Shown: positions 6,852-45,385 of the stretch, in pieces
How positions within the stretch are numbered: the stretch's first letter is position 1
Layout of the letters: the number at the start of each line of letters is the position of its first letter
NCBI GenBank assembly: GCA_947364365.1
Contig: CANASP010000005.1
Location: 1 to 64,000 of the forward strand
Direction of reading: 5' to 3'
From: an uncultured Alistipes sp.
GTDB taxonomy: Bacteria; Bacteroidota; Bacteroidia; Bacteroidales; Rikenellaceae
DNA: 64,000 bases
The notes under the pieces: generated by a model
Told to the model about the DNA's origin: nothing
Database searches by the model: none
The model's input: the letters and a program-made list of their open reading frames with translations, nothing else
Position numbers and translations under genes: made by a program

Positions 6852-6891
6852 CGACCCAATCGGAAATAAAAAATCAAATCATTGTACGGAT

Positions 6892-25936: not shown

Positions 25937-26638
25937 TCAATTGCCCGTCCGCCGCTTATAACAATCCCGCTTCCGGCAAAGAGCGCATCCGTAGTCGCGG
26001 CGCTCGGCATCGACGCCCAGACCGACCACCGCACTGACTGACTTGATCGGCAGCATCAACCCTGATTCGCAGAGCCGCACACCGCAGAAGTTCGCCGGCA
26101 GGAGGCTGAACAATGCATGTTGCTCGGCAACGCTCCACCCGCAATATCCCGGGCTATAGGAGTTCGTGATCCGCAACCCTTCCAAGGCCGCATGCCGTTC
26201 GAGCCGGTCCAATCCGCGACCCACGATCGCTTCGGCCATCACCGAGCCCAACGCATCCGCGACATACGCCGCCACGATATCTTCCCCTTCGCGCAGCTCG
26301 TGCAACCAGGCATCCATCTCGGCCCCGACACTGGCGACAAGAATGGCGAAACAGCTCCCCTTGCGCAGCTGCGCCGCGATAATCGCCCCGGGTTCGAAAT
26401 CGGCACCCTCCAGCGTCAACCGTTGCCGGTCGACACGCCCTTCCACGATCCGAAACCCCAGCTGGGGACGGCATACGGCATACGCCTCAACAGTCAGACG
26501 CTCCGCGATCTTCCGCACCTCGGATCCCGGCTCCGCCTCTCCATACCCCAATGCGGCCCATAGTTCCGCCGGAGAAAACGCAAGGTCCTGCACGATAAGC
26601 GACAGCTCTCGGGCGGCCATCCATTCATTCCGTTCCAT
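25937..26638 (-). CDS. Stand-alone MetH-activation-like protein
   Basis: About 233 residues, related to the C-terminal AdoMet-binding activation domain of B12-dependent methionine synthase. The signature reads ITNSYSPGYCGWSVAEQHAL, then FCGVRLCESGLMLPIKSVSA, and a C-terminal cysteine set CALCRKRDCYKRR. In MetH this domain methylates cob(II)alamin with AdoMet plus an electron to rescue the oxidised cofactor. A separate version at the end of a corrinoid methyltransferase operon suggests it reactivates the neighbouring corrinoid protein. The start at 26638 overlaps the CobW-like stop by 14 nt (ATG 26650 is an alternative). Confidence 0.85.
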   Translation of the reverse strand: MERNEWMAARELSLIVQDLAFSPAELWAALGYGEAEPGSEVRKIAERLTVEAYAVCRPQLGFRIVEGRVDRQRLTLEGADFEPGAIIAAQLRKGSCFAILVASVGAEMDAWLHELREGEDIVAAYVADALGSVMAEAIVGRGLDRLERHAALEGLRITNSYSPGYCGWSVAEQHALFSLLPANFCGVRLCESGLMLPIKSVSAVVGLGVDAERRDYGCALCRKRDCYKRRTGN

Positions 26639-27554
26639 CGATCCGGTCATTCAACAGTTCACGTACATCTTCTATTATCGTCTCGCCACGGCCGTCATCG
26701 ACCCACCAACAGGTCAGAAACCCGCCGCACGCGGGGGCTTCGGCAAGCGGAGCGCACTCCGGATCGCCGGAATCGAGCCAGTCGACCTTCGTCCATCCCG
26801 TTTCGCCCGGCAGACATCCTTTCGCCCGCACGGGCCGCAGCGCTCTGTCCGCAAGACGGGAGAACAACGCCTCGAGTCGACCGGGACGAACGACCGTCCC
26901 AACAATCGGGAAGGTCTCCGATACGAAACGCGGCCCCCGGGCAGACGATACAGGAAAAAAGGTCCGAAATCGGGCATAGCGTTCGGGGACGGTACCGAGC
27001 CACCATCCGGCATCGAGCGCATCGCCACGCTCGACGACCAGCGCCCGGGGATTGATCCGTTCCAGCTCGTCCCGCACCCGATCGACCAGCCGACGCACGG
27101 CCCGGTCCGTATGGGTCAGCACGATCACCGGGGAGAGCCGGAACTGGCGAAGATAATGGTCGCGATTCAATGCCAGCAGCATGTCGAAACGCGCCACATC
27201 CACCAGCATCACCACACCGTCGGGTTCGAACCCCGGAATGCGGAGCAGGTCCGCCAGATCGCCCAGACCCGACGGCTCGAGGATGATGCAGTCGGGGCTG
27301 TAATCGGCACAGATACGCGCCATCGTCCCCGCCAGTTCGCCCCGCAACGTACAGCACACGCATCCGGCCCGCAGATCCACGACCTTCACGCCGCCGTCGC
27401 GAAGGTAGGCACCGTCGACCGTCTCGCGCCCCGATTCGTTCTCCACGACGACGATCCGCCGGGGTGCCAGCACCTCGCGCACGACATGTCGGATCAGTGT
27501 CGTTTTCCCGCTCCCGAGAAAACCGCATACGACGAGATTCAGTGGCATAGGCAT
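26625..27554 (-). CDS. CobW/G3E-family GTPase
   Basis: A 309-residue P-loop GTPase. Walker A is GFLGSGKTT, the metal-binding CxCC motif is GCVCCTL, the switch region includes ILEPSGLGD, and the NKxD-type guanine motif appears as THTD. A shortened CobW C-terminal domain follows. G3E proteins act as metal chaperones or cofactor-loading GTPases for cobalamin and other metal enzymes. Here it is packed between the cupin and the MetH-activation-like gene, overlapping both, so a job in loading or repairing the corrinoid protein is likely (inference). Confidence 0.85.
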   Translation of the reverse strand: MPMPLNLVVCGFLGSGKTTLIRHVVREVLAPRRIVVVENESGRETVDGAYLRDGGVKVVDLRAGCVCCTLRGELAGTMARICADYSPDCIILEPSGLGDLADLLRIPGFEPDGVVMLVDVARFDMLLALNRDHYLRQFRLSPVIVLTHTDRAVRRLVDRVRDELERINPRALVVERGDALDAGWWLGTVPERYARFRTFFPVSSARGPRFVSETFPIVGTVVRPGRLEALFSRLADRALRPVRAKGCLPGETGWTKVDWLDSGDPECAPLAEAPACGGFLTCWWVDDGRGETIIEDVRELLNDRIDGTE

Positions 27555-27967
27555 TCCGTCACCAGCGCCTCGGCCACCGCCGCGCGCAGTTCGTCCGCCT
27601 CCGTATCGCACAGCGGGCGATGGAAACAGTCGTCGAGATGCGTACGGCTCCGCTCGACGATGATCATCCGCGCGTCGTGCGACATGCCGATGTTGTGCCA
27701 CACGCCGGCCGGGATGTTGTAGGTAACACCGAGCGTCATACGCACGCATTCGAACGACACCCCCTCTGCGCCGATCTCGGCGGCCACCAGCACGGCTGTT
27801 CCGGCGAAAAGGACGAACGCCTCGTCGGTGCGTCGGTGCACCTCCACATCGTCCATATCGTCCAGCCCGTGTCCGGGCAGATAATTGAGTTGCGCGACCT
27901 GCCATCCGTCGCTAATCAGGAAAGGTTCGTACCCCTCCGCCTCGTGATAATAACGTTCGATCATCAT
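27539..27967 (-). CDS. Cupin-fold protein
   Basis: 142 residues with a single small beta-barrel. The two cupin motifs are degenerate: VHRRTDEAFVLFAGTAVLV corresponds to the first, and TYNIPAGVWHNIGM to the second. A histidine in each could bind metal. No known catalytic group can be assigned. It overlaps the upstream methyltransferase by 4 nt and the CobW-like gene by 16 nt, so it is translated as part of the corrinoid operon. It could sense or epimerise a sugar product, or be a small metal protein. Confidence 0.7.
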   Translation of the reverse strand: MMIERYYHEAEGYEPFLISDGWQVAQLNYLPGHGLDDMDDVEVHRRTDEAFVLFAGTAVLVAAEIGAEGVSFECVRMTLGVTYNIPAGVWHNIGMSHDARMIIVERSRTHLDDCFHRPLCDTEADELRAAVAEALVTECLCH

Positions 27968-28971
27968 TGTTCGCGATTAAAATCGGCAACGGCCCGGTAG
28001 AAAGCGTCGATATTGGCCTGCGGTACCCCGGGAGGTGTATCGCAGCCCGACGAAAGGACGAAATTGGGATATCCGGCCGCACCGCTCAACAAAGCGGTCG
28101 CGGCTCCGTACACCGCTTCGGGCGTCCCCATCTTGAAGAGCGAAACGGGGTCGATGTTGCCCATCACCAGCGTCTCCGGCGGACAGTCGCGCAACGCCGA
28201 CATCATGTCCATGCCGTTTCCGAAATGGTATCCCGCGGCCCCCGTGGCGACCATCGCCGCGGTGCACTGCCCCGTGTTGCCGCAATTGTGCAGGATGACG
28301 GCGAAACGGTCGTCCTGCACCCGCTCGACGATCCGGCGGACATAGACCGAGGAGAACTCCCGGCAGGCATCGTCGGAAAGGAGCCCGGCGGCCGGCTCGG
28401 CGATCACTACGCCGTTGGCTCCGGTTCGTTTCAGCGCCTCGCAGTATGCCGCAATGAACTGCGTGCACTTCTCCAGCAACAGCCGGATCGTGTCGGGGTC
28501 GATATAGATCCCCATCATGATCTCCGACATATCGTAGAGCCTCCCGGCCAGCGAATAGGGACCGATGCAGCCGCTCAGCACGGGCCTATCCGACTCCCGT
28601 GCGATGCGTTCGTTGGCCTTCAGATACTCCGGCACGCGTCCGGCATCGAGCGACGGTACGGCCAGCGCTTCGATCTGCGCACGATCGGACACCAGACGCC
28701 CCTCGACGTTGGGCACGTCGTCCTCCGCAAAACGGATCGCCGCGCCGAAAGCCTCGGCCTCGACGGTCAGATCCATGATTACGGTCGACGCCAGCGAGGG
28801 ATAACATTCGGCGAGCGCCAATACGGCGCGCGCATGCACCTCACCGTCCGTCACGGCATCGCGCACGCTGCGTCCGATCCGTTCGATCCCCGAATGGGTC
28901 ATGATCGGCAGCGCCGCACGGTCGGAGGAGGCGATCACCCCCTCCACCCATCTTTTCATGTTCACATCCAT
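27964..28971 (-). CDS. UroD-family corrinoid methyltransferase (MtaA/CmuA-like) 2
   Basis: About 335 residues with the uroporphyrinogen-decarboxylase TIM-barrel fold, but in the methyltransferase subgroup. The zinc-type ligands are visible as HNCG (VILHNCGNTGQC) and a later cysteine in SSGCDTPPGVP, as in MtaA/MtbA/CmuA. It lacks the N-terminal features of HemE. It moves a methyl group between a corrinoid protein and an acceptor, classically a thiol or tetrahydrofolate. ATG 28971 falls 4 nt after the corrinoid-protein stop; ATG 28992 would overlap it. Confidence 0.87.
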   Translation of the reverse strand: MDVNMKRWVEGVIASSDRAALPIMTHSGIERIGRSVRDAVTDGEVHARAVLALAECYPSLASTVIMDLTVEAEAFGAAIRFAEDDVPNVEGRLVSDRAQIEALAVPSLDAGRVPEYLKANERIARESDRPVLSGCIGPYSLAGRLYDMSEIMMGIYIDPDTIRLLLEKCTQFIAAYCEALKRTGANGVVIAEPAAGLLSDDACREFSSVYVRRIVERVQDDRFAVILHNCGNTGQCTAAMVATGAAGYHFGNGMDMMSALRDCPPETLVMGNIDPVSLFKMGTPEAVYGAATALLSGAAGYPNFVLSSGCDTPPGVPQANIDAFYRAVADFNREQ

Positions 28972-28975
28972 CCTG

Positions 28976-29617
28976 TCACACCGTTTTTGCAATGAGTTCC
29001 TTGGCTTTCAGCACCGCTGAATTGGCATTGTCCGAGTAGCCGTCCGCCCCGATCCGATCGGCGAACAACTGGTTGACCGGCGCACCGCCGACCATGATCT
29101 TGACCCGATCGCGCAATCCGGCCTTCTCGACCGCCTCGATCACCGTCTTCATGTAGTTCATCGTCGTCGTAAGCAGCGCCGAAAGGCACAGGATATCGGC
29201 CCTCTCGCTGCGGATCGCCTCGACGAACCGGTCGGCCGTAATGTTCACGCCGAGGTTCACGACCTCGAAACCGCACCCCTCGAACATCGAGGCCACGAGA
29301 TTCTTGCCGATATCGTGCAGATCGCCGTAGACCGTTCCGATGACGATCCTGCCGACGGTCGCCGATTTCCCGTTCGACAACCGCGGTTTGACGAGTTCCA
29401 GCGCCCCCTTCATGGCCCGTGCCGCCATCAACAGCTCGGGGACGAACGCCCGGCCCTCCTGAAAACGCAGGCCGATACGCTGCATGGCCGGAATCATATG
29501 ATCGGAGATGATCGACTGCGGATCGATCCCCTCGTCGAGCGCCGCGCGGGTCAAATCGACGGCCGGTTCGAGCCGGCCGGCCACGATAGCGTCCGAAAGT
29601 TCTTGCAAATTAGTCAT
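28976..29617 (-). CDS. Corrinoid (B12-binding) methyl-carrier protein
   Basis: 213 residues with the two-domain layout of MtaC/MtbC/MttC. A helical cap (residues about 1-85; HMIPAMQRIGLRFQEGRAFV) precedes a Rossmann-like B12 domain. The DxHxxG motif, which supplies the lower-axial histidine, reads GDLHDIGKN at about residues 97-105, and the GG motif is IMVGGAPV. It carries the methyl group between the two flanking UroD-family methyltransferases. This is the centre of the corrinoid module. Confidence 0.93.
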   Translation of the reverse strand: MTNLQELSDAIVAGRLEPAVDLTRAALDEGIDPQSIISDHMIPAMQRIGLRFQEGRAFVPELLMAARAMKGALELVKPRLSNGKSATVGRIVIGTVYGDLHDIGKNLVASMFEGCGFEVVNLGVNITADRFVEAIRSERADILCLSALLTTTMNYMKTVIEAVEKAGLRDRVKIMVGGAPVNQLFADRIGADGYSDNANSAVLKAKELIAKTV

Positions 29618-29638
29618 GGTTCTGTCGTTTTTCGTTGG

Positions 29639-30718
29639 TTATCGGTTTTCGTTCAGCCGGCAAAGTTCCTCGTAGGAACCGTAACGGCGCGCCGCGGCGA
29701 TGAAGGCCCGGAAATTCGCCTCGGGCGTATTGCGCCCCATCGCGCATCCCGAGCTGACGATGTGCCGCCGGCCGCGGGTCTTGGCCACCAGGTCCCTCAC
29801 GGCCGCATCCACATCGGCCGGAGCGCCCAGCACCAGCGGGAAACTCGGATCGACATTGCCCATCAGCACCGTAGACTCGGGAACGAGCCGGCGCGCCTCG
29901 GCCATGTCGAGCTTCCAATCCACCTCCAGAATCCGCGCGCCCGTGCGCCCCATCTCCTCGATTATGCCGGTCGTATCGCCGCAAATATGGACCGAGAAGG
30001 GGATACCGTAAGCCTGCACCTCCTCGACCAATCGGCGCTCGGGCTCGAAGGCGAACCGGCGATACATGTCGGGCGAAATGAGATTAGGTCCGGCGAAGGC
30101 GTCGCCGATCGACGTGGCATGAGCGCCGGCATCCTTCTGCGCCTTGGCAAAAACGGCGCTGATACGGCGACAATAGTCCAGCACATCGGCGATCAGGCCG
30201 GGATCCTCGGTCATCAGATCCATCATGAACTGCGTGGTTCCGCGCAGCAGGCAGGCGATGCTGAACGGGCCCTGGTCGGCACGCCCCATGACGAAGACAT
30301 GGTCGCCGACGGCCTCGACCAGCCGTTCGGTGGCTTCGAGCCATACGCCGAGACGTCCCGAACGTCCGGGATCGGGAATCGGCATGTCGTAGACGTCGCG
30401 CAGATCCTTCAGCACGGGCTGCTGCTCGTCGACGATCGCCGGCTCGTCCTCGCGATAGATCACCTTGGCACCCACGGCCTCGGCGATCGTCGCGTCATCG
30501 AAATCGATCACGCAACCGTCGTATCCGTATTTCTCCTGCGACACGATGTGCGCCCGGGCCATCTTGGCGCCGTCGCGCACCACCTCGCCGATCTTGTATC
30601 CGGCCGTCTCGACCGTAAACATAAAACTCTGCGGCACGACGGGCAACATGTCGGGCATCCAACCGTCCAGCACCGCCATGCAGCGTTCCAATGATGTCAT
30701 TTCCTTCATATCGAGCAA
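29639..30718 (-). CDS. UroD-family corrinoid methyltransferase 1
   Basis: A 359-residue TIM-barrel protein of the UroD superfamily, only distantly similar to the second copy. It keeps the metal-ligand pattern HICGDT and SSGCAMGRNTPEAN. The pairing MT1 - corrinoid protein - MT2 is how methanol, methylamine and O-demethylase systems are built. Which copy demethylates the substrate and which delivers the methyl cannot be told from sequence. It starts 6 nt after the MFS transporter stop and belongs to the same transcript. Confidence 0.85.
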   Translation of the reverse strand: MLDMKEMTSLERCMAVLDGWMPDMLPVVPQSFMFTVETAGYKIGEVVRDGAKMARAHIVSQEKYGYDGCVIDFDDATIAEAVGAKVIYREDEPAIVDEQQPVLKDLRDVYDMPIPDPGRSGRLGVWLEATERLVEAVGDHVFVMGRADQGPFSIACLLRGTTQFMMDLMTEDPGLIADVLDYCRRISAVFAKAQKDAGAHATSIGDAFAGPNLISPDMYRRFAFEPERRLVEEVQAYGIPFSVHICGDTTGIIEEMGRTGARILEVDWKLDMAEARRLVPESTVLMGNVDPSFPLVLGAPADVDAAVRDLVAKTRGRRHIVSSGCAMGRNTPEANFRAFIAAARRYGSYEELCRLNENR

Positions 30719-30724
30719 CTGTTT

Positions 30725-31876
30725 TTATTTGTTATTTTTCAACCTCAACGAAACCGCGAACAGATAGAGAAGCGCGCCCACGGGCACGAACAGGCTGGCC
30801 CATTGTCCGCTCATATCGGCCACCACCCCCATGACGGGCGGCAACAGCGCGCCGCCGGCCACACCCATGATCATCAGCGCCGAGACCTCGTCGGCGCGCC
30901 CGGGCAGCGCCCCGAGCGCTGCCGAGAAGGCGATGGCGAAGACATTGGCGCAACAGAGTCCGAGCACGAAAAGCGCGGCAAAAAGCACCGTCGCGTCCGA
31001 AGCTGCCATGAAAAGGCCCAATGCACCGAGCGCCAAAGCCACCGTACCCGTCAGAAACCGGTGCGGCGACACGCGCGCGAGAATCATCGCACCGCCGAAC
31101 GCACCCGCCGTACGGGCCATGTAATAGAGGCTGCACCCCACGGCCGCCCTGTCGAGCGGCAGCGAACAACACGCCGAAAGATACTTCGGCACGGCCGTCA
31201 TCAAACCGATCTCGAATCCGACGCTCACGACGATAACCGACAGCAGCATCAGCATGCGGCCGTCGGCGAGCAATGCGCCGACGCCACGGATTCCGACTGC
31301 TTCGGAGCGGGTCTCCTCGACCTTCAATCGCGACATCCAAAGCCAGGAAAGCAGCGTGACGGCGGCATAGAGCGGAAAAACAAGGCGCCAGTCGCCCCAC
31401 GCTCCCGCAGCCGTTCCCACCAGCACGGGGCCCGCCATCGAACAGATCGCCTTGACGAACTGTCCGAGCGTAAGCATGCTCGTCGTGCGCGACTGCCCGG
31501 CCACATCGGCGAGCAGCGGATTGAGCGAGACCTGGAGCAGCGTATTGCCGATTCCCAGCAGAGCGAAAGCAGTCAGCACCACAGGAAACGTATAGCCGAC
31601 CAGCGGCAGGAGCATCGCGACGAAGGTAACGGCGGCACTGACCATGACCGTGCGCCTGCGTCCGATGCGCCCCATCAGCATGCCCGCAGGCAACGAGCCG
31701 ACGGCAAACCAGAGAAATACCATCATGGGCAGCAGGTTGGCGATGCGGTCGCTGAGCGCGAAATCGGCCTTCACATAGCTGGTCGCCACGCCGACCACAT
31801 CGACGAAGCCCATGACGAAAAAGCTGAACAACACGGGCAACAGCCCGGCAAGATCGGGTTTTCGATTCATTCGCAA
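30725..31876 (-). CDS. FHS-type sugar MFS transporter
   Basis: A 383-residue, twelve-helix major facilitator. Motif A reads GSLPAGMLMGRIGRRR between helices 2 and 3. The N-terminal pattern (FFVMGFVDVVGVATSYVKAD) matches the fucose/glucose-galactose symporter (FucP/GluP) group used in many PULs. It would import the monosaccharide or disaccharide released in the periplasm, perhaps with its O-methyl group still in place, to the cytoplasmic methyltransferases encoded immediately downstream. Confidence 0.85.
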   Translation of the reverse strand: MRMNRKPDLAGLLPVLFSFFVMGFVDVVGVATSYVKADFALSDRIANLLPMMVFLWFAVGSLPAGMLMGRIGRRRTVMVSAAVTFVAMLLPLVGYTFPVVLTAFALLGIGNTLLQVSLNPLLADVAGQSRTTSMLTLGQFVKAICSMAGPVLVGTAAGAWGDWRLVFPLYAAVTLLSWLWMSRLKVEETRSEAVGIRGVGALLADGRMLMLLSVIVVSVGFEIGLMTAVPKYLSACCSLPLDRAAVGCSLYYMARTAGAFGGAMILARVSPHRFLTGTVALALGALGLFMAASDATVLFAALFVLGLCCANVFAIAFSAALGALPGRADEVSALMIMGVAGGALLPPVMGVVADMSGQWASLFVPVGALLYLFAVSLRLKNNK

Positions 31877-31934
31877 CGATATTTTCGCAATTCCGAACGA
31901 TCCGGCGGCGAAACCGCACGAAGCGCTCCGCCGC

Positions 31935-31954
31935 CCGGCTCCGAACGGAGCCGG
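31935..31954. other. GC-rich hairpin between the GH38 and MFS genes
   Basis: CCGGCTCC-gaac-GGAGCCGG, in the only sizeable gap (94 nt) of the PUL/corrinoid gene run. There is no T-tract on the minus strand, so it may be an RNA-processing or stability element rather than a terminator. Confidence 0.5.
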
Positions 31955-31970
31955 ACGGTCGGTCTACGGA

Positions 31971-34835: not shown

Positions 34836-34850
34836 CGTCTTGATACGCTA

Positions 34851-36575
34851 TTACGGATTCAACAGCTTACGGGTCTGTTCGGGACGGTGCTCCATGCGGA
34901 TGCGCCAAAGCAGTTCCTCCACCGACACGGGTTTGATCGAGGGCAGCATGAGCTCCCTCGTCCGCTCCACGGCATTCGCCCCGACAGCCGGACGCGGCGT
35001 CTGCGGGCTGGTCCGGGAAAAGTCTGACCAGGCGTGAACGATCGTCCAGTCGAGCCTCCGCCCGCCCTCTTCGCCGGCCTTCAGGACATCGCGGTTCACC
35101 ATCGAAGCGACGAACTCGGGCACGCCGGCACGCGGACGATAGACATTGACCTCGTTCCAGAGGCTGTAGCGCGACGTCACCACCGGAATATCGATCCCCG
35201 CACGATTGCGGTGCCAATAGATCTCGCCGTCGAGTTCATAGGGGAAATACTGCACGGCGAGCATGCCTGCGAGACCGGGCATCTCCTCGGCATAGATCCG
35301 GAACGCCTCCTGGGCTTCGGGCGAGGAGACATCGAAGCAGATGAATCCGAAGACGCGGATACCGAGACGCTCCAGGTGGCTGTTGACCCGTCGCGCGAAC
35401 TCGCGGAGCAACTCGGAGCGGTTCGGACGCTTCGAAGCGAAGATATCGGGATACTGGTACCCGCCGCCGTATTCGATAAAACTCGATCCGACCTGCCTTC
35501 TGCCCGCCATCTTGTTCCAGGTAAACGGGGTCAGAATCGAAAGCTCCGTCGGACAAAGGGTCCAGCTCAGGCCGATCTTCCCGGCCGTCCCGCCGCCCAT
35601 GTAGAGCGGCGATTCGCCATAACTGTCCATCGACCACTGCACGTTGTCGCCGTCGCTCATGACGAAGGCATGGAAAGACGAACGGTCGTCGAAATCGATC
35701 GTCCGCGGATCGACCGACTCGATCCTCACGGGCTGCGCCGCCTGGCCGACCGACGAGATGAACGGAAGATTCAGACACCAGTTGGTCGCCGTGTTGTAGT
35801 GGCCCCAGCGCGCGATCAGGCTCGTGAAGTCGTATTCGTCGCCGCAGCCCCAACCCAGAATCGGAGAGAGCGGCTCGACCCATTCGAGAATCGGCTCGAT
35901 CAGCTCCTTCTGATCGGCATAGAGCATCAGACGGTGAGCGATGGCATAGTCGCGCAGGTTGTGCACCGAAGGGGGAATGCTCAAGGCCGACTTGCGACAG
36001 AGCCGGTCGCGGTTGCGCTCGAAACACTCGGCGGCCGATTCGCTGCGGGCATCCTTCAGTTCGCGCAGCCCCAGCGCACGGGCCCGCTCGACCAACGACT
36101 CGTCGATCAGCGCCCCGCACAACAGCGAGGCGTAGACCGTGGCGACGTTGGCCGAATAGTCCGTCCCGGGATGCGCGGCATAGGCATCCGCCCGGGGTGT
36201 ATCCGCCCGGTAGAGGACATACCCGCGCAAGATGCCCCGCCGGCGGAGCAAAGAGGCCAGCTCGTCGATCTCCATACGGCGGATCTCCTTGATGCCGAGG
36301 GCCGCGACCGACTCTTCGAACAACGCCTTATAGGAGGCGTTCGACGTTTCGATCCAGACCATCGTATCGAAGCGCCCTTCGTTGACGGCCTGCGCCGCCA
36401 ACCCCGACAGCGACTCGACCAGCATAGCCTCGGCCGGGCTTTCGCCCAGCGGGCAGACGATCAGTTTCTCGGGAGCCCGCTGCTCGGGCCAGCCGTGACG
36501 CCCGTCATAGGCCTGTGCCGAGGCGGCCGTCGACCACCCCACGAGCGCGATAAAAAGCAGTTTCAGCAGTTTCAT
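34851..36575 (-). CDS. GxGYxYP-family putative glycoside hydrolase 1
   Basis: A 574-residue secreted protein (signal peptide ending SAQA). The name-giving motif appears as YGGGYQYP near residue 370. The N-terminal region (about 30-250) and the C-terminal barrel-like region (about 260-500) match the two-part layout of the GxGYxYP putative glycoside hydrolase family. Conserved acidic residues include MSDGDNVQW. The C-terminus VEELLWRIRMEHRPEQT recurs almost exactly in the next gene, so the two are paralogues. No activity is established for the family as far as I know. Confidence 0.82.
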   Translation of the reverse strand: MKLLKLLFIALVGWSTAASAQAYDGRHGWPEQRAPEKLIVCPLGESPAEAMLVESLSGLAAQAVNEGRFDTMVWIETSNASYKALFEESVAALGIKEIRRMEIDELASLLRRRGILRGYVLYRADTPRADAYAAHPGTDYSANVATVYASLLCGALIDESLVERARALGLRELKDARSESAAECFERNRDRLCRKSALSIPPSVHNLRDYAIAHRLMLYADQKELIEPILEWVEPLSPILGWGCGDEYDFTSLIARWGHYNTATNWCLNLPFISSVGQAAQPVRIESVDPRTIDFDDRSSFHAFVMSDGDNVQWSMDSYGESPLYMGGGTAGKIGLSWTLCPTELSILTPFTWNKMAGRRQVGSSFIEYGGGYQYPDIFASKRPNRSELLREFARRVNSHLERLGIRVFGFICFDVSSPEAQEAFRIYAEEMPGLAGMLAVQYFPYELDGEIYWHRNRAGIDIPVVTSRYSLWNEVNVYRPRAGVPEFVASMVNRDVLKAGEEGGRRLDWTIVHAWSDFSRTSPQTPRPAVGANAVERTRELMLPSIKPVSVEELLWRIRMEHRPEQTRKLLNP

Positions 36576-36601
36576 CGGATTTCTTTTTCAGGTTCAGGTC
36601 T

Positions 36602-38527
36602 CTAAAAATATTCGTTCAGGTAACGCTCCGTCTGCTCGGGCCGGTATTCCATGCGGATACGCCAGATCAGCTCCTGCATCGACACGTCCTCGTAATCAGC
36701 TGCCAGACGGCGGTTGCACAACGCCGCGGCCGAGGCCCCGCGCAACGTTCCGCCGGGGGCGCACTCCGCCGTCTCGTCCGTCGAAGCGTCCGTATCGGTG
36801 AAGGCGCTCCACGCATGGACGATCACCGCCGAAAATTTCGAATCGGCCGGCTCTTCGTTCAGCCGGCGGGCCACATAGGCCGGACTGCCGTCGCGCTGAC
36901 GGTTTCCGTCGGGGAAATTCCAGATCGAATAACGGACCGTCACCACCGGAATGTCGTAACCCCGCTTATTCGTCACCCAGAGTATCTCGCCCGCACCTCC
37001 GGCATAGGAGGGGGCGTACTGGATGGCGACGATCCCCTCCAGCTGGTCGTTGGCGTCGACGAACGCCTGGTAGGTCTCCATAGCGGCCGGAGAGGCGGGA
37101 TCGTGGGCGATCTGCTCGAGGATCTTGATCCGGTGCTGCCGCATGTGCGAAGCGACCTTCGCGGCCAGGGACTTCAGCAGCGTGCCACGGTCGCCGTCGG
37201 CACCGAAATCGTCGCTGTACCAGTAACCGCCGCCGAAACTCTCGATAAGCGTCGTATTGCGGCCCTGAAGCGACATGATCTTGTCGAACTGCGCGGGTGC
37301 GATCTGGCAGATGTTCGAGGCCGTGATGCCGAAATTCATGTGCACCTCATCGACCTTGGGGTCCGTATAGTAGTTCTCCACGAACCCGTTGAGCATCCAT
37401 CCGGCATGCGGGCCGTCCGACAGATAATAGGACACGAACCGCTTGGAGGCGTTGGTCGAGTAGTCGATATCCTGCGGATTGACCACGCGGGCCAGGTTCT
37501 GCCGCTGGCGCGACCGATATCCTTTCGAGAAGAACGGCACGTTGAATTCGCCGAGCGCGACCATCATGTTGCCGCTGCGCGAGACGGGGACGACGAACTC
37601 GTCCTCGCCCACGCCGGGTTCCCAGCCGTAGACGGGCGAGTTGGGTGCCAGCCAGGCGAGCACCTCCTTGAAAAGTTCGGTGTTCTGACCGCCCGACGGC
37701 GTATCATAGCATTTGTTGAGATTGATCGCGAAAAGGTTGTTGGCGATGGCGAAATCGGCCAGTTCGCCCGTATGCACGGGCATGACCACCAGAGCCCGGT
37801 TATCGCACCGGTCGCGGAATTCGCGCCACGCGTCGGCCGTCGTCTTCTCCGAGGCGTCATAGACCATCTCGAAACCCTTGCCGTCGTAGAACGCCCGGTC
37901 GCGCTTGTCGACGATGAACGCGCCGTAGACATGCGAGGCGACCACCGCCACCACACCGCTCTCGGGATTCGCACACACGTCGGTCAGCACGTATTTCCGT
38001 CCCAGACGGTCCATGACGCCGCCGTCGATCGGAAGGAACCCGGCGTTGGTCATCGGGTTGCCCGTGTGGACGATCCAGGTCGGCGAGAGCGCGAAAAGTT
38101 TCATGCACTCCTTATAGGCGTCGGCCCCGTCGGCAGCGTCCATCCACACGGCCGTCGTCACCTCCCCGGCGGCGAGCGCCCGGTTGCAGAGCCCGGCGAA
38201 CGACTGGCTCAGCAGATGGTATTGCAACCCTGAGCCGGAGACATCGGTCGCCGAACCGCCCGGCTCGTCGGGATTGTTCCTGTCCGGGCTCGAAAGCCCG
38301 AACAACCCGTAGTTGGCGCACTGCGCCGCAGGCATCGCCCCCATGGCATCGGGATGCCAGAACTGCCCCTCGTCGGCCGGAGCGTCCCACTGGTCCATAT
38401 ACAGCGAGGCCGTGGTCCCGTCCCCCGCACCGGCGCCGAACCGGTCGTCGTCCATCGGCGAATCGTAGAGCCGGTCGCAGCCGGCAGCCGCAGCACAGAG
38501 TGCCAGCAGATAGAGTATCTTTTTCAT
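36602..38527 (-). CDS. GxGYxYP-family lipoprotein 2
   Basis: A 641-residue lipoprotein (lipobox AAAAGCDR), likely surface-exposed. It is a paralogue of the following protein, with YLSDGPHAGWMLNGF in place of the MSDGDNVQW segment, and FGGGYWYSDDFG near residue 430, where the final proline of the motif is serine. It ends MQELIWRIRMEYRPEQT. Loss of the proline and of the DGDN acidic pair suggests this copy may bind rather than cleave (inference). It is followed 27 nt later by copy 1. Confidence 0.8.
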   Translation of the reverse strand: MKKILYLLALCAAAAGCDRLYDSPMDDDRFGAGAGDGTTASLYMDQWDAPADEGQFWHPDAMGAMPAAQCANYGLFGLSSPDRNNPDEPGGSATDVSGSGLQYHLLSQSFAGLCNRALAAGEVTTAVWMDAADGADAYKECMKLFALSPTWIVHTGNPMTNAGFLPIDGGVMDRLGRKYVLTDVCANPESGVVAVVASHVYGAFIVDKRDRAFYDGKGFEMVYDASEKTTADAWREFRDRCDNRALVVMPVHTGELADFAIANNLFAINLNKCYDTPSGGQNTELFKEVLAWLAPNSPVYGWEPGVGEDEFVVPVSRSGNMMVALGEFNVPFFSKGYRSRQRQNLARVVNPQDIDYSTNASKRFVSYYLSDGPHAGWMLNGFVENYYTDPKVDEVHMNFGITASNICQIAPAQFDKIMSLQGRNTTLIESFGGGYWYSDDFGADGDRGTLLKSLAAKVASHMRQHRIKILEQIAHDPASPAAMETYQAFVDANDQLEGIVAIQYAPSYAGGAGEILWVTNKRGYDIPVVTVRYSIWNFPDGNRQRDGSPAYVARRLNEEPADSKFSAVIVHAWSAFTDTDASTDETAECAPGGTLRGASAAALCNRRLAADYEDVSMQELIWRIRMEYRPEQTERYLNEYF

Positions 38528-38545
38528 AACAGCGAATCTTATCCG

Positions 38546-40198
38546 TTAGTTGTTGTAACCCTCGTTCTGCGACAGCCCCTTGAGCTTGATACGCTCGTTG
38601 TAGGGAATCGGACGGACGAGATGTTTTTCCGAAAGGTTGTCGTAGTGTTCGACGAGCGGATTGAGCCGTGCGCGTGCGAGCAACGTTCCCGTGCGCTTGA
38701 GATCGAACCAGCGGTCGTGCTCGCCGAAGAGTTCGCATCCGCGCTCCTCCAGCAGCCGGTCGAGCGTCAGTTCCGATGCCGAAGCGATCTTCAGCACCTC
38801 GTAATTCTCCTCCGACCCGGCCGCGCGCCGCAGGATGGCGTTCACCTTCTCCAGCGCCGCATCCGGCCGGCCGGCCAGCAGATAGGCCTCGGCCAAAAGC
38901 AGATAGGTGTCGGCCATACGGATCACCGCATCCTCGCGGGTTCCCTTGCCGCCCCACTCGATCTTCGTCTCGCGGAATTTGCGGCACATGGGCATGCAGT
39001 CGGTCGACCAGCCCATCATGCCGAGCGCCGGATACCAGTTGTAATCGCCCGACGCCGTGCGGAACGGATAGAAATGGACGGCTCCGCGGTCGTCGCCCGA
39101 CGTATCGTCCCAATGCGGCATGTAGATCCCCGTCTGTCCGTAGCGCTCGTTCGTCGGATCGTTCACCGCGAACTCGAAGCGGAACGTCGCTTCGTAGCGG
39201 CTGTCCTGCGCCGGATGGCGGAACCACTCGTGCACGCGCGGATTGGTCCATATATTGCGCATCATGGAGGAGTACTCCTGCTGGTCGAGGGCGAACATGC
39301 CGGGATAGAGCGCCGTGATGTTGAAGCCGAACTGCGTGTGGATCGGATTGCCGCTCCCGTTGTAGTTCTTGTCCGTGCCGTACTGGATGGCCCAGATAAT
39401 CTCCTTGTTGTTCTGGTTGTTCTCGTCGAAGACGTCCCCGAAACGGGGCAGCAGTCCGTAATGGGTCGAAGCGATCACCTCCTCGAAGAGCCCAACGGCC
39501 GAGGCCGCGTCGTCGGGCCGGGCATAGTCGCGGTAGGCGCGCGTCAGGTAGATCTTGCCCAACAGATGTTTCAGCGCCGTATCGGAGAGTTCGCCGGCCG
39601 CCTCGGCCTTTTCGGGCAGCTTGCCGAGCGAAGCCTCCAGTTCGGCGACGATGAACCGGTAGATCTCCTCCTCGCCCGCACGCGTCACCTCGCCGATGAC
39701 GTCGCCGGCCGCCGTGTTCTCCCCGGTCAGCAGCGGCACGCCGCCGAACGTCTCCACCAGATAATAGTAGGCCATCGCCCGCAGGATGCGCCCCTTGGCG
39801 ACCAGCCGGTCGTAATCGCGTCCTGCGATCTCGGGGGTACACCGGGCGAGCAGGATGTTGGCCTCCTGCACGATCTTGTAGAGCGTAGCCCAATAGGTGT
39901 CGATCGTCCCCGAAAGGCCCGAAAGGTCGGCATTGTATCCGTTGAACTGGGCAGCCGCGGGGCTCTCGTCGCAAGAGATGTACATGTCCGTACCGAGGTA
40001 TTGCAGCACATAGGTCGTAAAGACCGACCGATAGCGCGCATAGAGGTTCACGACGAGTTTCTCCTGCCCCTCTTTCGTATCGTAGTAATCGGGGGTCACG
40101 ACCGCCGGATCGTAGATATCGAGAAAATCGTTGCATCCGCCGAGCCCGACCGTCAGGGCGCCGCAAAGCACGACGATGTATTTTTTTAACTGTTTCAT
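38546..40198 (-). CDS. SusD/RagB-family glycan-binding lipoprotein
   Basis: A 550-residue surface lipoprotein (lipobox LGGCND) with the SusD fold. The N-terminal NDFLDIYDPAVVTPDYY segment is diagnostic, and TPR-like helices follow. The C-terminal region carries the RagB/SusD signature (ELTLDRLLEERGCELFGEHDRWFDLKR, seen in pieces). It captures glycan at the cell surface as the lid of the SusC channel encoded 15 nt upstream. Confidence 0.95.
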   Translation of the reverse strand: MKQLKKYIVVLCGALTVGLGGCNDFLDIYDPAVVTPDYYDTKEGQEKLVVNLYARYRSVFTTYVLQYLGTDMYISCDESPAAAQFNGYNADLSGLSGTIDTYWATLYKIVQEANILLARCTPEIAGRDYDRLVAKGRILRAMAYYYLVETFGGVPLLTGENTAAGDVIGEVTRAGEEEIYRFIVAELEASLGKLPEKAEAAGELSDTALKHLLGKIYLTRAYRDYARPDDAASAVGLFEEVIASTHYGLLPRFGDVFDENNQNNKEIIWAIQYGTDKNYNGSGNPIHTQFGFNITALYPGMFALDQQEYSSMMRNIWTNPRVHEWFRHPAQDSRYEATFRFEFAVNDPTNERYGQTGIYMPHWDDTSGDDRGAVHFYPFRTASGDYNWYPALGMMGWSTDCMPMCRKFRETKIEWGGKGTREDAVIRMADTYLLLAEAYLLAGRPDAALEKVNAILRRAAGSEENYEVLKIASASELTLDRLLEERGCELFGEHDRWFDLKRTGTLLARARLNPLVEHYDNLSEKHLVRPIPYNERIKLKGLSQNEGYNN

Positions 40199-40212
40199 TG
40201 TTCCGTCGCTGA

Positions 40213-43203
40213 TTAGAATTTAAGATTGACGCCGCATGTGAAGATCATCGGATAGAGCGACAGCGACGTCGATAGATTCTCGCCGATCACCTGCGGATCC
40301 GATCCGAGATAGTCGCTGAACGTAAACGGGTTCTGAACCGAAAGCGAAACCCGCAGCCCCTTCATGCGGAGCTTGTTGAGTGCAGCCCGCGGCAGCGAAT
40401 AGCCCAGCGAGATGTTCTGGATCTTGAGGAACGTTCCTTTGACCTGAGCCAGCGCCTGCGTCCAGAGACATTCCAGACCGATCCCGGGATATCGGTCATT
40501 CCGGGTCTCGGGAGTCCAGTAGTCGACGGCCAGTTTGTTCCAGTCCTGGTTGTTCAGGCCGAGGAAGGTGAACGTGAAGGGATCGTTGTACAGCCCTCCG
40601 ATCTGCGCATACATGTAGATCGAGAGATCCCAGTTCTTGTAGGTGAACGTGTTGGTCATGCCAGCCGTCCAATCGGGACTCTGCGTGCCGAGGATATACA
40701 TGTCGTTGGCGTCGATGATCCCGTTGCCGTCGTGGTCCTCGATCTTGGGCCATCCGGGAGCGGCGCTGTATCCGGCTGCCTCATCCTTCTCCTCCTCCTG
40801 CCAAATACCGATCTGCTTCACGTCGTAATAGACGTTCATCGGATGCCCGATGAACCGGCGGTTGGCCAGATCGTCGGTCTTCGTACCGTCGAGATCGAGA
40901 ATCTTGTTGCGGTTGAGCGAGAAGACGAGGTTGGTCTTCCAGGTGAAGTCGCGCTTCGCGATGTTGACGCTGTTGAGCGTAAGCTCCACACCCCGGTTCT
41001 GCGTGGTTCCGATATTTTCGAGAATGCTCCGGTAGCCGTTCACCTCAGCCACCTGACGCTGGAAGATCAGATCGGTCGTCTTGCGGAAATAGACATCCAC
41101 CATACCCGAAAGCCGGTTGTCGAACAATCCGAAATCCAGACCCAGGTTCCACTCGGAGGTCATCTCCCACTTCAAGTCCTCGTTGCCCAGACTGTCTCCC
41201 AGACCGAAACCCTTGCTGCCCGAACCGCCCAGGCTGTAGGGATTCAGCGCCAGCTGGGTCTGCGTGACGTTATAGCCTACATTGTTGTTGCCGGTCTTGC
41301 CCCAGCTGGCCCGCAGCTTGAGCGCGCTGATCCACTCGACGCCGCTCATGAAGGCCTCGTTCCGGATCGACCAACCGACGGCAGCCGACGGAAGCAGTCC
41401 CCAGCGATTCTTGCGCGCCAGACGCGACGTTCCGTCGTAACGGGCCGTCACGGTGAACAGGTAACGGTCCTTGAAGACATAGTTCACGCGCCCCATCAGC
41501 GAAACCATCAGCGACTCCCAGTAGTTGCTGTTCACGTTGGTGATCTGCTCGGCCGTCTGGATGGCGTGCCAGTCCGAATCGTAAGGCAGCCCCTCGCCCG
41601 TCATGCCCGAGCTCATGTGCCGGTCCTTCTGCATGCTGAACAATCCGATGACGCTCAGCTTGTGGTTGCCGGCGAACGTATTTTCATAGGATACCGTATT
41701 GTCCCACACCCAGTTCTGGTTGTATCCCTCGCTGCGCGAGGCATAGGGTTTGTTCACTCCCAGTCCCCACTGCGAATCGGTCCCGGTCCAGTAACCGTTC
41801 ACCGCGCCGTCGTACTGCGTGGCGAACTGCGTCTTGAGAGTCAGGTGTTCTACCGGGTCATAGGCCACATAGGCCGAAACATTGTACGACCATCCGTCGC
41901 TTTCGTTCTTCGTATTGTCGTCCTGAATAAAGGGATTCACCCGTCCGCCCGGACGATGCGTGAAGGTCGGCGTCACGCCGTCCGATTCGTAACGGCTCAC
42001 GATCGGCGTGATGTAGTAGGCGTTGAGCAACGCATCGTAGCTGCCGTGGTTGATCTTGTCACGCGACATGTAGGCGCGCATGCCGATCTTCGCACGCTGC
42101 TTGACCCGGTATTCGATACCGATGTTGGCCGTCAGGCGGTCGAAGTTCTCCGATCCGGCCAATCCGCCGTCGCTCATATAGCCCACACCGAAGGTATAGG
42201 AGGTGTGCTGCGTAGCTCCCGAGGCCGAGAGGCTGTGGTTCATCGTCAGAGCGTCCTGCGCGAACTCGCGCAGCCAGTCGTAATACTCGCCGTGCTGCAC
42301 ATGGCGTCGTTCGTCGGCCGTCAGGAAAGCATCCGTCGAGAGCGACGCTACCCCGAACTTGTTGGTCCATTGCCGGATACGAAAATCGACATACTCCATG
42401 CCGTCGCCTTCGCTACCCAACATGTCGGGCATGCGCGTCGGTGTCTTCACCCCCACGTAACCGTTGTACTCGACCGAGAAACCCTCCTTGGCATTCGCCC
42501 CCTTGGTAGTCACGATGACCACGCCATTCGATCCTCTCGATCCGTAGATCGCGCACGACGAAGCGTCCTTGAGCACGTCGATCGACTCGATATCCTCGGG
42601 ATTGATATGCCGAAGACCGGAGGTGGTCGGCACACCGTCGATCACATAGAGCGGCCCGTTCGAATAGTTGAACGAATTGAGCCCACGAATCTGGATGTTC
42701 ATGTCGGCGCCCGGACGGTTCGACGTCTTGGTCACCAGCACGCCGCTCACACGACCGTTGAGCGCCTCGCTCGGATCGACCGTCCGCGCATCGACGATCC
42801 GGTCGCCCGAGATCGATTCGATCGATCCGGTCAGATCCTTTTTCCGCACCGTACCGTATCCGATCACCACCACATCCTCCATCTGCAGCGCATCCTCCTC
42901 GAGGACCACCTCGAGGTTCCCGACAGCCTGCGTCACGGGAATCTCCCGGGAGGCGTATCCTATGAACGAAACCATCAGCCGGTCTCCCGACCGCACTGCG
43001 ATGCCGAATCCGCCGTCCGCACCCGAGGTCGTACCCGTCTGCGTCTGTGCGGCGACGATCGTCGCTCCGACGACCGGATTTCCCGCCGTATCCACTACCC
43101 GACCGCCTACCGTCAACGTCTGCTGAGCCACCGCGATCGGGCTCCAACATGCGGCTGCGCAGCACATCAGCACGCAGACCGCCTTCATTATTCCGTTTTT
43201 CAT
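40213..43203 (-). CDS. SusC/RagA-family TonB-dependent transporter
   Basis: A 996-residue outer-membrane transporter. After a signal peptide, a carboxypeptidase-regulatory-like domain lies at about residues 30-105 (VGGRVVDTAGNPVVGATIVA). A TonB-box region (LQMEDVVVIGYGTVRKKDLT), the plug (about 120-230, with the conserved IDVLKDASSCAIYGSRGSNG) and the 22-stranded barrel follow. It imports oligosaccharides using TonB energy. It forms a pair with the SusD-like gene and is second in the operon. Confidence 0.96.
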   Translation of the reverse strand: MKNGIMKAVCVLMCCAAACWSPIAVAQQTLTVGGRVVDTAGNPVVGATIVAAQTQTGTTSGADGGFGIAVRSGDRLMVSFIGYASREIPVTQAVGNLEVVLEEDALQMEDVVVIGYGTVRKKDLTGSIESISGDRIVDARTVDPSEALNGRVSGVLVTKTSNRPGADMNIQIRGLNSFNYSNGPLYVIDGVPTTSGLRHINPEDIESIDVLKDASSCAIYGSRGSNGVVIVTTKGANAKEGFSVEYNGYVGVKTPTRMPDMLGSEGDGMEYVDFRIRQWTNKFGVASLSTDAFLTADERRHVQHGEYYDWLREFAQDALTMNHSLSASGATQHTSYTFGVGYMSDGGLAGSENFDRLTANIGIEYRVKQRAKIGMRAYMSRDKINHGSYDALLNAYYITPIVSRYESDGVTPTFTHRPGGRVNPFIQDDNTKNESDGWSYNVSAYVAYDPVEHLTLKTQFATQYDGAVNGYWTGTDSQWGLGVNKPYASRSEGYNQNWVWDNTVSYENTFAGNHKLSVIGLFSMQKDRHMSSGMTGEGLPYDSDWHAIQTAEQITNVNSNYWESLMVSLMGRVNYVFKDRYLFTVTARYDGTSRLARKNRWGLLPSAAVGWSIRNEAFMSGVEWISALKLRASWGKTGNNNVGYNVTQTQLALNPYSLGGSGSKGFGLGDSLGNEDLKWEMTSEWNLGLDFGLFDNRLSGMVDVYFRKTTDLIFQRQVAEVNGYRSILENIGTTQNRGVELTLNSVNIAKRDFTWKTNLVFSLNRNKILDLDGTKTDDLANRRFIGHPMNVYYDVKQIGIWQEEEKDEAAGYSAAPGWPKIEDHDGNGIIDANDMYILGTQSPDWTAGMTNTFTYKNWDLSIYMYAQIGGLYNDPFTFTFLGLNNQDWNKLAVDYWTPETRNDRYPGIGLECLWTQALAQVKGTFLKIQNISLGYSLPRAALNKLRMKGLRVSLSVQNPFTFSDYLGSDPQVIGENLSTSLSLYPMIFTCGVNLKF

Positions 43204-43215
43204 CGCTCGATCGAT

Positions 43216-44256
43216 TTACTCCTGCAACGCAGTCCATTTATACACTCCGACCAATTTGGCCGTATGACGTCCCGTCTTGTCGGGAATGTTTTCATCGTCC
43301 TCGGGTTTCGTCGTGAAATCCCAGGCGCACACCAGATCGGTCTCCGTTCCATCCGCTTCGGCCTGCATCAGTTCCCGGATCTCAGCCTCGGACTTGGCCT
43401 TATTCCACAGTCTGAAATGCCTGATATATCCGCTCATGCAACGCGACTTGTCCTTGGGCTCGACGAAGGCCCACATCCGGCACTCCTCCTCCGTCGCGCA
43501 CGGCACCATGGCATCCGCGACATCGGCCGAAGCACGCAGTTCGCCGTCGATATAGAGCGACATCTTTTTCGCCGACGTATCGAACACGCCGGCCACGTGG
43601 AACCACTCGTTGCAGGCCGAGGGCGCCGCCGCGTAGATCGTCGGCAGCGTAAGGTCGGGATTGGCATTGTTCGACCCGATGCTCAGACGCAGCAGGCTGT
43701 TGGCCGTCCCCCAATAATGAAGCGTCCATCCCTTATAGGGCAGCGGGCTGACGAACGTGGAGATAAACGAACCGAAGGTCGTCTCGATGAATCCGTCCGG
43801 ATATTTGGTCCACGCCTCGACCGTAAAATTGGCCGGCGTAAAATCCGGCGACGACCCGAAGTCGATGTACCCCTTCCGGTCGACGCCGTTGACGAACAGC
43901 TCGGCAGGCGTGCCGGGAGCGACCGAGGCGATCATCGAATCGTCGAACAGGTTGATGGCCTTCTGCGCGGCAAGCACGTAGTTGTCCACCTCGAACTGCA
44001 GGATGAACATCCCTGCACGCGCCTCCGAAATGCCCCGGTTCAACGCCTCGAGCGCCGCTTCGAGCTCCTTGTAACTCGATTCGGGATACATCCCGTCCTC
44101 GATTCCGACGGTCGCGTTCTGCAAACGCTCCTCGATCTGCGTCTTCAGCTCGTACAACCGGGAACAATCCAGTTCCTGCGCGCCCGACCGGACCTCGTCC
44201 ACGCAGGATCCGAACCCCAGTATAGAGGCCGTCAAAAATAAGAGAAGTTTTTTCAT
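43216..44256 (-). CDS. LamG-domain surface lipoprotein (DUF4972-like N-terminus)
   Basis: A 346-residue lipoprotein (lipobox GFGSCVDE). Residues about 30-120 are helical (DUF4972-like; LKTQIEERLQNATVGIEDG). Residues about 130-340 form a concanavalin A-like LamG_3 jellyroll (FTVEAWTKYPDGF ... WFHVAGVFDTSAKKMSLYID). Such proteins bind glycans at the surface. As the promoter-proximal gene before susC it probably extends glycan capture for this PUL. Confidence 0.83.
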   Translation of the reverse strand: MKKLLLFLTASILGFGSCVDEVRSGAQELDCSRLYELKTQIEERLQNATVGIEDGMYPESSYKELEAALEALNRGISEARAGMFILQFEVDNYVLAAQKAINLFDDSMIASVAPGTPAELFVNGVDRKGYIDFGSSPDFTPANFTVEAWTKYPDGFIETTFGSFISTFVSPLPYKGWTLHYWGTANSLLRLSIGSNNANPDLTLPTIYAAAPSACNEWFHVAGVFDTSAKKMSLYIDGELRASADVADAMVPCATEEECRMWAFVEPKDKSRCMSGYIRHFRLWNKAKSEAEIRELMQAEADGTETDLVCAWDFTTKPEDDENIPDKTGRHTAKLVGVYKWTALQE

Positions 44257-44302
44257 ACGTTTTTAGGTTGGTTAGTGTTTGGTTTTAGGTTTGCAACTTT
44301 TT

Positions 44303-44318
44303 ATTTAACCGGTTAAAT
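44303..44318. promoter_or_regulatory. LacI-type operator O1 upstream of the PUL operon
   Basis: The perfect 16-bp palindrome ATTTAACCGGTTAAAT, centred at 44310/44311, lies 47 nt before the LamG lipoprotein start. It shares its core with O2. LacI/GalR proteins bind such CG-centred palindromes. Confidence 0.85.
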
Positions 44319-44339
44319 AATGCCTTAAAAAAAGAGAGG

Positions 44340-45335: not shown

Positions 45336-45362
45336 CGGGTCCGTTTTCGGTGAATAAATTCG

Positions 45363-45376
45363 TTTAACCGGTTAAA
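45363..45376. promoter_or_regulatory. LacI-type operator O2 at the regulator's own start site
   Basis: TTTAACCGGTTAAA, a perfect 14-bp palindrome, begins about 10 nt downstream of the lacI-type -7 element. A bound repressor would cover the transcription start. Confidence 0.83.
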
Positions 45377-45385
45377 ATACCGTCT

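Follow-up and report, generated by a model that had tools for sequence, protein, structure and literature searches.

The window analyzed here is a stretch of 64,000 nucleotides from an uncultured Alistipes sp., located in contig C5 (CANASP010000005.1) of a 38-contig assembly of 2.15 Mb that is 87% complete. An earlier note on this DNA had described thirteen co-directional genes as a polysaccharide utilization locus (PUL) that runs into a corrinoid methyl-transfer module, and Pfam searches and open reading frame (ORF) translations bore out their presence and order, all on the minus strand (25937-44256). The upstream half encodes a LamG-domain protein (Laminin_G_3), a SusC-type transporter (Plug and CarbopepD_reg_2), a SusD-type protein (SusD_RagB and SusD-like_3), two GxGYxYP proteins (GxGYxYP_C in both) and a GH38 enzyme (Glyco_hydro_38N and 38C2). 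An MFS permease is followed by a UroD/MtaA-type methyltransferase designated MT1u (URO-D), a corrinoid protein designated CoP (B12-binding and B12-binding_2), a second such methyltransferase designated MT2u (URO-D), a small cupin, a CobW-type GTPase (cobW) and a stand-alone MetH-activation-like protein (Met_synt_B12). A LacI-family gene 83 nt upstream of LamG belongs to the same unit. The coordinates are summarized in Table 1, where loci collected from other genomes carry L numbers.

Table 1 Features of the operon and its upstream region.
Feature	Position	Strand	Basis or relatives
Bacteroidota-type promoter match TTTG-N19-TATCTTTG upstream of lacI	45386-45416	-	pattern match
Palindrome TTTAACCGGTTAAA, predicted operator between promoter match and lacI	45363-45376	.	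exact copy at L098:6919
LacI-family regulator	44340-45335	-	relatives near MT1u in L053, L055, L056, L059, L098, L099, L102
20-bp perfect palindrome TTATTTAACCGGTTAAATAA, predicted operator between lacI and LamG	44301-44320	.	core exact at L098:8020
LamG-domain protein, lipoprotein-type N-terminus (by eye)	43216-44256	-	relatives 483 bits (L098), 475 bits (L099)
SusC-type transporter	40213-43203	-	relatives 1546 bits (L098), 1603 bits (L099)
SusD-type protein	38546-40198	-	relatives 886 bits (L098), 831 bits (L099)
GxGYxYP protein, first; lipoprotein-type N-terminus (by eye)	36602-38527	-	Pfam
GxGYxYP protein, second; signal-peptide-like N-terminus (by eye)	34851-36575	-	Pfam
GH38 enzyme, signal-peptide-like N-terminus (by eye)	31971-34835	-	Pfam
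Longest intra-operon gap, GC-rich hairpin without U tract	31871-31970	-	-53.1 kcal/mol, z -2.91, 0/200 shuffles as low
MFS permease	30725-31870	-	MFS_1 match in frame 30725-31876 (P0002)
MT1u, UroD/MtaA-type methyltransferase, H244-C246-C325 (P0008 numbering)	29639-30709	-	Pfam, NCBIfam, alignment
Corrinoid protein CoP, DxHxxG motif	28976-29617	-	Pfam, NCBIfam
MT2u, second UroD/MtaA-type methyltransferase, His-Cys-Cys	27964-28971	-	Pfam, NCBIfam, alignment
Small cupin	27539-27967	-	profile match, no Pfam match
CobW-type GTPase, start 27548 or 27554	26625-27554	-	Pfam
Stand-alone MetH-activation-like protein	25937-26650	-	Met_synt_B12 E 3.3e-07

The adjacent SusC/SusD pair, which is kept in L098 and L099, and the accompanying glycan-active enzymes identify the upstream half as a PUL; the GH38 protein is a predicted enzyme with a Glyco_hydro_38N score of 99.8 bits against a gathering score of 25. 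As judged by family and motif, the downstream half contains the parts of a three-component methyl-transfer system, namely CoP with both B12-binding domains and the DxHxxG motif and two adjoining methyltransferases. Export or lipoprotein signals are present at the N-termini of LamG, both GxGYxYP proteins and GH38, and are absent from MT1u, CoP, MT2u, the cupin and the MetH-activation-like protein (all by eye). With the signals so distributed, the gene order mirrors the path of a sugar from the outer membrane through the periplasm and the inner membrane to the cytoplasm. For the MetH-activation-like protein, an SPGY motif is present in five of six relatives inspected, and most of them show a C-terminal Cys motif in their printed ends. 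The cupin had no Pfam match; a profile of 13 relatives matched the PDB cupins 3d0j (E = 2.4e-24) and 3d82 (E = 7.3e-06), and H44, E49, W90 and H91 are invariant in the 13-row alignment. The PDB relatives of the cupin are all uncharacterized, and its family is tied to MT1u.

Several gene calls were adjusted. The ORF at 30732-31919 (P0001) was rejected as the transporter, being a shadow frame without a Pfam match, and the MFS_1 match falls in P0002. The probable MFS start, read from the sequence, is the ATG at 31870, and that of MT2u was placed at the ATG at 28971. A CobW start at 27905 was discarded since it would overlap the cupin. Apart from the GH38-MFS gap, neighboring genes overlap or are about 4-26 nt apart (6-27 nt in the earlier note). 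The single long gap of 94 nt in that note fits a TTG start at 31876 and becomes 100 nt with the ATG.

A Bacteroidota-type promoter pattern (TTTG-N17-23-TAnnTTTG) had 6 exact matches in the window versus 0.07 expected, and the only one within 25937-45416 is located upstream of lacI. Allowing one mismatch added a single minus-strand match, at 31176-31205 within the MFS gene; on that strand the intergenic gaps of the operon had none. Sigma-70-type and terminator-like matches in the window were at the chance level, no terminator-like site was listed in the GH38-MFS gap, and the hairpin there lacks a U tract; a sigma-70 promoter or an intrinsic terminator splitting the operon was therefore rejected. 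A single transcript is predicted. Elsewhere in the window, two identical promoter matches of the Bacteroidota type are found 147 bases apart (47513-47544 and 47660-47691), with a similar one at 54939-54970.

The palindrome core TTAACCGGTTAA flanks lacI twice (second copy at 44305) and has no other copy in the assembly. The same arrangement was observed in L098 of Dysgonomonas sp. 521, with the promoter match at 6882, the core at 6919, lacI at 6941, the core again at 8020 and LamG at 8097, plus an additional one-mismatch copy at 7952. One-mismatch copies are present in regulatory gaps of L099, L102, L055 and L056, and those at L099:8085, L055:1074 and L056:1117 are counterparts of the lacI-LamG site. 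In L056 this one-mismatch copy directly precedes MFS-GH92-MT1u-CoP-MT2u-cupin-CobW-MetHact (MetHact denotes the MetH-activation-like protein). Among 1.43 Mb of collected loci, the core with at most one mismatch gave 10 matches; nine belong to the MT1u loci just named and the tenth lies in L040.

A five-row MT1u alignment scanned against contigs of 84,980 species yielded 39 loci, of which 22 showed at least 58% identity to MT1u (two of these are near-identical contigs of one strain). The loci at this level come from Bacteroidales (13 loci), Verrucomicrobia, Spirochaetes and Clostridia, giving 14 Bacteroidota loci with the window. Beside MT1u, these 14 carry the cupin (12/14), MFS (11/14) and CoP together with MT2u (7/14). 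GH38 adjoins MT1u in 10 of the 12 testable Bacteroidota loci, window included; L051 and L063 were left out of this count as contigs of ~6 kb. GH38 is in pieces in L057, one of two copies is split in L053, L059 has a GH38 C-domain at 22.8 bits (cut-off 25), and L056 has GH92 in place of GH38, in one cluster with the L053 protein that Pfam confirmed as GH92. Nearly the entire order recurs in Dysgonomonas sp. 521 (L098 + L058) as lacI-LamG-SusC-SusD-GxG-GxG-GH38-MFS-MT1u-cupin-CoP-MT2u-MetHact, with no CobW match, and in an uncultured Bacteroidales (L099 + L052) as LamG-SusC-SusD-GxG-GxG-GH38-GH92-MFS-MT1u-CoP-MT2u-cupin-CobW-MetHact, where lacI, GH38 and GH92 are divergent. In the compact loci L055 and L056, GH38 or MFS comes immediately after lacI, and the stretch from lacI to MT1u has no SusC/SusD; these contigs start just upstream of lacI, and SusC/SusD farther out are possible. 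Corrinoid genes thus do neighbor PULs among homologues, contrary to a refuting case named in the earlier note, and the conserved gene order rules out chance adjacency.

MT1u has few close orthologues (in the family, 2 of 268 genomes; in the order, the window and one of 393 genomes), and MT2u was found at E<=1e-80 in 8 of 395 genomes of the phylum, window included. The family search matched 31 of the 268 genomes, and 20 stretches were taken from part of them. Among named organisms, Candidatus Alistipes intestinipullorum has the relative closest to MT1u (92%), and cultured relatives that carry MT1u are Parabacteroides gordonii, Parabacteroides faecalis and Dysgonomonas sp. 521. A stand-alone corrinoid protein was present in all 14 genomes searched, 13 with MT1u and one with a paralogue only.

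As a control, 14 Rikenellaceae loci with MT2u and without MT1u were compared. Thirteen carry CoP and MetHact, GH38 is absent from all 14, GH92 occurs in two and a SusC-type match in five. The absence of GH38 from these loci indicates that the mannosidase travels with MT1u rather than with the corrinoid core. The same control bears on the possibility that one transcript serves two functions, a mannan PUL and a separate corrinoid cluster for S/Se-methyl or methionine salvage. In its favor, CoP-MT2u-MetHact stands without SusC in the fetched stretch of nine of the 14 loci, and both UroD proteins of the operon have His-Cys-Cys (HCC) zinc sites. Against it, the MT1u-mannosidase link also holds where no core adjoins MT1u (L053 and L060-L062), and the compact L056 has MFS, GH92, MT1u, CoP and MT2u behind one palindrome. 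We regard two separate functions as very improbable.

Outside Bacteroidota, MT1u is accompanied by sugar importers. In the Spirochaetes L066, L068 and L069 (L068 and L069 are near-identical), the genes immediately upstream of MT1u encode a ribose-type ABC importer; ribose-type ABC genes lie within 10 kb in the Clostridia L070 and L078 (beyond a transposase in L070), and a Sugar_tr permease lies directly downstream in L064 (Akkermansiaceae). A mutarotase-like family with Pfam membership not assigned recurs in L066 and L067, and L071 has GH31 and a GH99 match under the cut-off. More distant MT1u paralogues occur with a glycyl-radical enzyme and a cupin, together with GH47 and a GH38 C-domain in L072 and with MFS in L074; in both loci (L072 3922-13024, L074 6486-12374) the glycyl-radical enzyme and a radical-SAM activase adjoin the cupin and the MT1u paralogue. 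The gene content and order, their conservation, the common regulatory sites and the linkage to mannosidases and importers are computational results, and on synteny and regulation it is nearly certain that the thirteen genes and lacI form a functional unit. The link to a sugar is well supported, and the contexts of MT1u point to a sugar as its probable substrate, in Bacteroidota a mannose.

Taken together, we consider it fairly probable that the operon is regulated and serves the use of a methylated glycan of the mannose type, with MT1u demethylating the imported sugar via the corrinoid protein. The LamG, SusD and SusC proteins would bind the glycan and carry it through the outer membrane, the exported GH38 and GxGYxYP proteins would free monosaccharides in the periplasm, and the MFS permease would carry a methylated sugar across the inner membrane. 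In the cytoplasm, MT1u would transfer the sugar's methyl group to the corrinoid protein in its Co(I) state, leaving a usable sugar, and MT2u would then pass the methyl group to an acceptor, of which a thiol such as homocysteine is the most likely. Oxidized corrinoid may be rescued by the MetH-activation-like protein, CobW may assist with metal and the cupin may have some further step. LacI is predicted to repress the operon via the two palindromes until the sugar ligand arrives. The interpretation in the earlier note is thus supported in part: comparative evidence backs a unit with common regulatory sites, a mannose-type glycan, import of the sugar and corrinoid methyl transfer tied to it, and the O-methyl part is more tentative in view of the zinc site of MT1u.

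Several observations count against this interpretation. The host is a metagenome-assembled genome (87% complete). A strong hairpin occupies the GH38-MFS gap, where it may tune the share of downstream transcript. No palindrome with at most one mismatch was found in L053 or L059-L062 (L053 has a two-mismatch copy in a gap). On a tree of 37 rows, of which 13 were unlabelled and the rest labelled by hand, the mannosidase link amounts to 2 label changes; as judged from this tree, it is inherited within one clade and not the product of many independent gains. Outside Bacteroidota, no clear alpha-mannosidase is annotated by MT1u, with just the sub-threshold GH99 of L071, and a weak GH38 match (38 bits) lies near MT2u without MT1u in L115. 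MT2u relatives of at least 46% identity occur in 7 of 15 MT1u genomes, two more have relatives of 31-33%, and six have none at E<=1e-30; with clear relatives in just these seven, the acceptor side varies. Finally, the zinc triad of MT1u conforms to the S/Se pattern of PMC10418091, being HCC in 24 of 24 alignment rows (one contig is represented twice, and two rows are near-duplicates of each other).

According to PMC10418091, HCC is the mark of S-methyltransferases within the superfamily, and in O-type enzymes other residues stand in for one cysteine or both; with no cysteine replaced, MT1u departs from this O-type rule. The triad of MT2u is also HCC (22 of 22 rows, one contig again being represented twice). 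The rule is not strict, because the chloromethane enzyme CmuA of plasmid pJM105 also aligns with HCC, and HCC was accordingly rejected as proof of an S-methyl donor; the rule is weakened, not removed. Another UroD-family chloromethane enzyme, CdmB, is active without zinc, as described in an excerpt of PMC13222342. UroD proteins of other loci have HCH (L044, L049, L100, L101, L104, L105 and L106), HCN (L048, L054, L067 and L078) or HDH (L047, L054 and L103) triads, and those of L034 and L041 have HCC. The UroD protein of L041 (1-10521) stands in line behind SusC and SusD and is not an MT1u orthologue. In the Spirochaete loci L108 and L110, a corrinoid protein and CobW genes accompany UroD proteins in which Phe replaces the zinc His (FCC in the alignment).

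These triads bear directly on a variant with the same architecture and the methyl group on sulfur, in which MT1u would demethylate a methylthio sugar. The invariant HCC of MT1u, the non-HCC triads of many UroD proteins in other loci, and MtaA, a thiol methyltransferase, as the nearest solved relative of MT1u (4ay7, E = 1.3e-27) all speak for it. Methylthio sugars are rare, however, the methylthio-pentose on mycobacterial lipoarabinomannan being an example; moreover, no sulfur-metabolism gene was found among the thirteen by Pfam, and CmuA has HCC with a non-sulfur donor. We consider a methylthio donor improbable overall. Both UroD proteins miss the cut-off of the MtaA/CmuA family TIGR01463 (235.4 bits in NCBIfam; MT1u 171.4, MT2u 135.7).

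A further alternative is that the substrate of MT1u is another methylated group on a mannoside (aglycone, amine or phosphate) that is freed by GH38. The sole NCBIfam match of GH38 is mannosylglycerate hydrolase, a partial match of 53.1 bits versus a cut-off of 1138, and the best models for CoP are MtgC and MtbC, below their cut-offs. In contrast, monosaccharide-type importers adjoin MT1u in several phyla, and the known amine methyltransferases of such systems belong to another family; this alternative appears distinctly improbable. Possible ligands for the proposed operon occur in nature: Chlorella N-glycans carry 3-O-methyl and 3,6-di-O-methyl mannose at their non-reducing ends (PMC6344472), and snail glycans have 3-O-methyl mannose in terminal position (PMC8699351). 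A methylated mannose-type sugar is the likely methyl donor. On context, an O-methyl sugar is predicted as the most likely form, and the S-methyl alternative has to be taken seriously.

On the acceptor side, the HCC site of MT2u and its likeness to MtaA suggest a thiol as the putative acceptor, and homocysteine is our guess; an O-methyl donor and a thiol acceptor would both be plausible. The assembly encodes two URO-D proteins, both inside the operon, two B12-binding_2 proteins (CoP and a 1212-aa MetH-like ORF), four GH38 matches and one MTHFR. Pterin_bind occurs in just two of its proteins, MetH and a 336-aa ORF that presumably encodes dihydropteroate synthase, and no stand-alone methyl-tetrahydrofolate methyltransferase was found in the 87%-complete assembly. 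A thiol acceptor via MT2u is therefore likelier than tetrahydrofolate; of the two acceptors proposed in the earlier note, tetrahydrofolate or homocysteine, the thiol fits better, and the layout with a methyl-tetrahydrofolate-type second enzyme is lacking. It is unlikely, though less so than the alternatives above, that the sugar is demethylated and the methyl group passes to tetrahydrofolate through MetH or an unrecognized enzyme, with MT2u otherwise employed. The presence of MetH and MTHFR and the six MT1u genomes without MT2u are consistent with such a route. However, it would have no stand-alone Pterin_bind methyltransferase to draw on, and MT2u often accompanies CoP and MetHact where these adjoin different UroD proteins (not in L104-L106), as expected of an acceptor-side enzyme.

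The proposed system resembles MtaABC, MtbA/MtbC and the aromatic O-demethylases (OdmB, MtvB and VdmB) in that both methyltransferases and the corrinoid protein are encoded together and the UroD superfamily is used. It differs in its mannan-type PUL, in a second enzyme of the UroD type with HCC instead of the methyl-tetrahydrofolate type (the Pterin_bind enzyme of aromatic O-demethylases has no counterpart here), and in a MetH-activation-like protein with no RACE gene among the thirteen. The type 1 mlp clusters of Kountz and Balskus (PMC10418091) likewise have MtaA-like HCC proteins, a corrinoid protein and no H4folate methyltransferase; they differ in carrying a Ram/RACE activase, beside Mlp2 and Mlp3, and sulfur or selenium genes. 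The main text of that paper does not mention Bacteroid-, Alistipes, polysaccharide, SusC, sugar or carbohydrate. The alpha-mannan PUL BT3853-BT3862 of Bacteroides thetaiotaomicron also has two GxGYxYP proteins and mannosidases, but the mannosidases named in the excerpted text are GH92 and GH99, and the paper mentions neither corrinoid nor methyltransferase (PMC4071793). In agreement with the earlier note, no described PUL with its own corrinoid demethylase, and no description of anaerobic corrinoid sugar demethylation, was found in the CC-licensed PMC literature, subscription papers being outside this scope.

Marine flavobacteria reportedly use a P450-based oxidative demethylation of 6-O-methyl-galactose. 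This route also links removal of a sugar methyl ether to polysaccharide use and needs oxygen, whereas the system proposed here would rely on a corrinoid and work anaerobically. To our knowledge, the sole sugar-ether demethylation known requires oxygen.

Related gene sets were observed in other glycan loci: SusD-GxG-GH92-GxG-UroD-CoP-MetHact with MT2u on the opposite strand (L048, 3-10569), SusC-SusD-UroD-CoP-MetHact-MT2u-GH127 (L049, 7208-18888), SusC-SusD-like, NAGLU, GH120, UroD, CoP, MetHact and MT2u (L100, 1-10345), SusC-SusD-CoP-MT2u-MetHact-RhaT-UroD (L101, 4063-14076), and GH120 with UroD and CoP (L044 and L104). Three loci of this kind (L054, L100 and L101) occur in Parabacteroides gordonii alone. 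One of them, L054 (2086-11065), encodes a corrinoid protein and three UroD proteins with different triads (HCN, HDH and HCC), surrounded by GH95-, GH120-, GH38- and GH43-type genes. We tentatively suggest, at somewhat less than even chances, an undescribed class of anaerobe glycan loci with dedicated corrinoid sugar-demethylation modules, in which each glycan type would have its own UroD protein feeding CoP, MetHact and often MT2u toward methionine. As part of this suggestion, mannosidase loci would pair with MT1u, GxGYxYP/GH92 loci with HCN proteins, and GH120 and RhaT-linked loci with HCH proteins.

If the operon works as proposed, gut anaerobes would have an oxygen-free route to finish methylated glycans, and sugars would join the donor list of corrinoid methyl transfer. 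Glycan use would be tied to B12 supply, and the freed methyl group could feed methionine. If the wider class is real, MT2u would make methionine from the methyl groups of dietary or host glycans.

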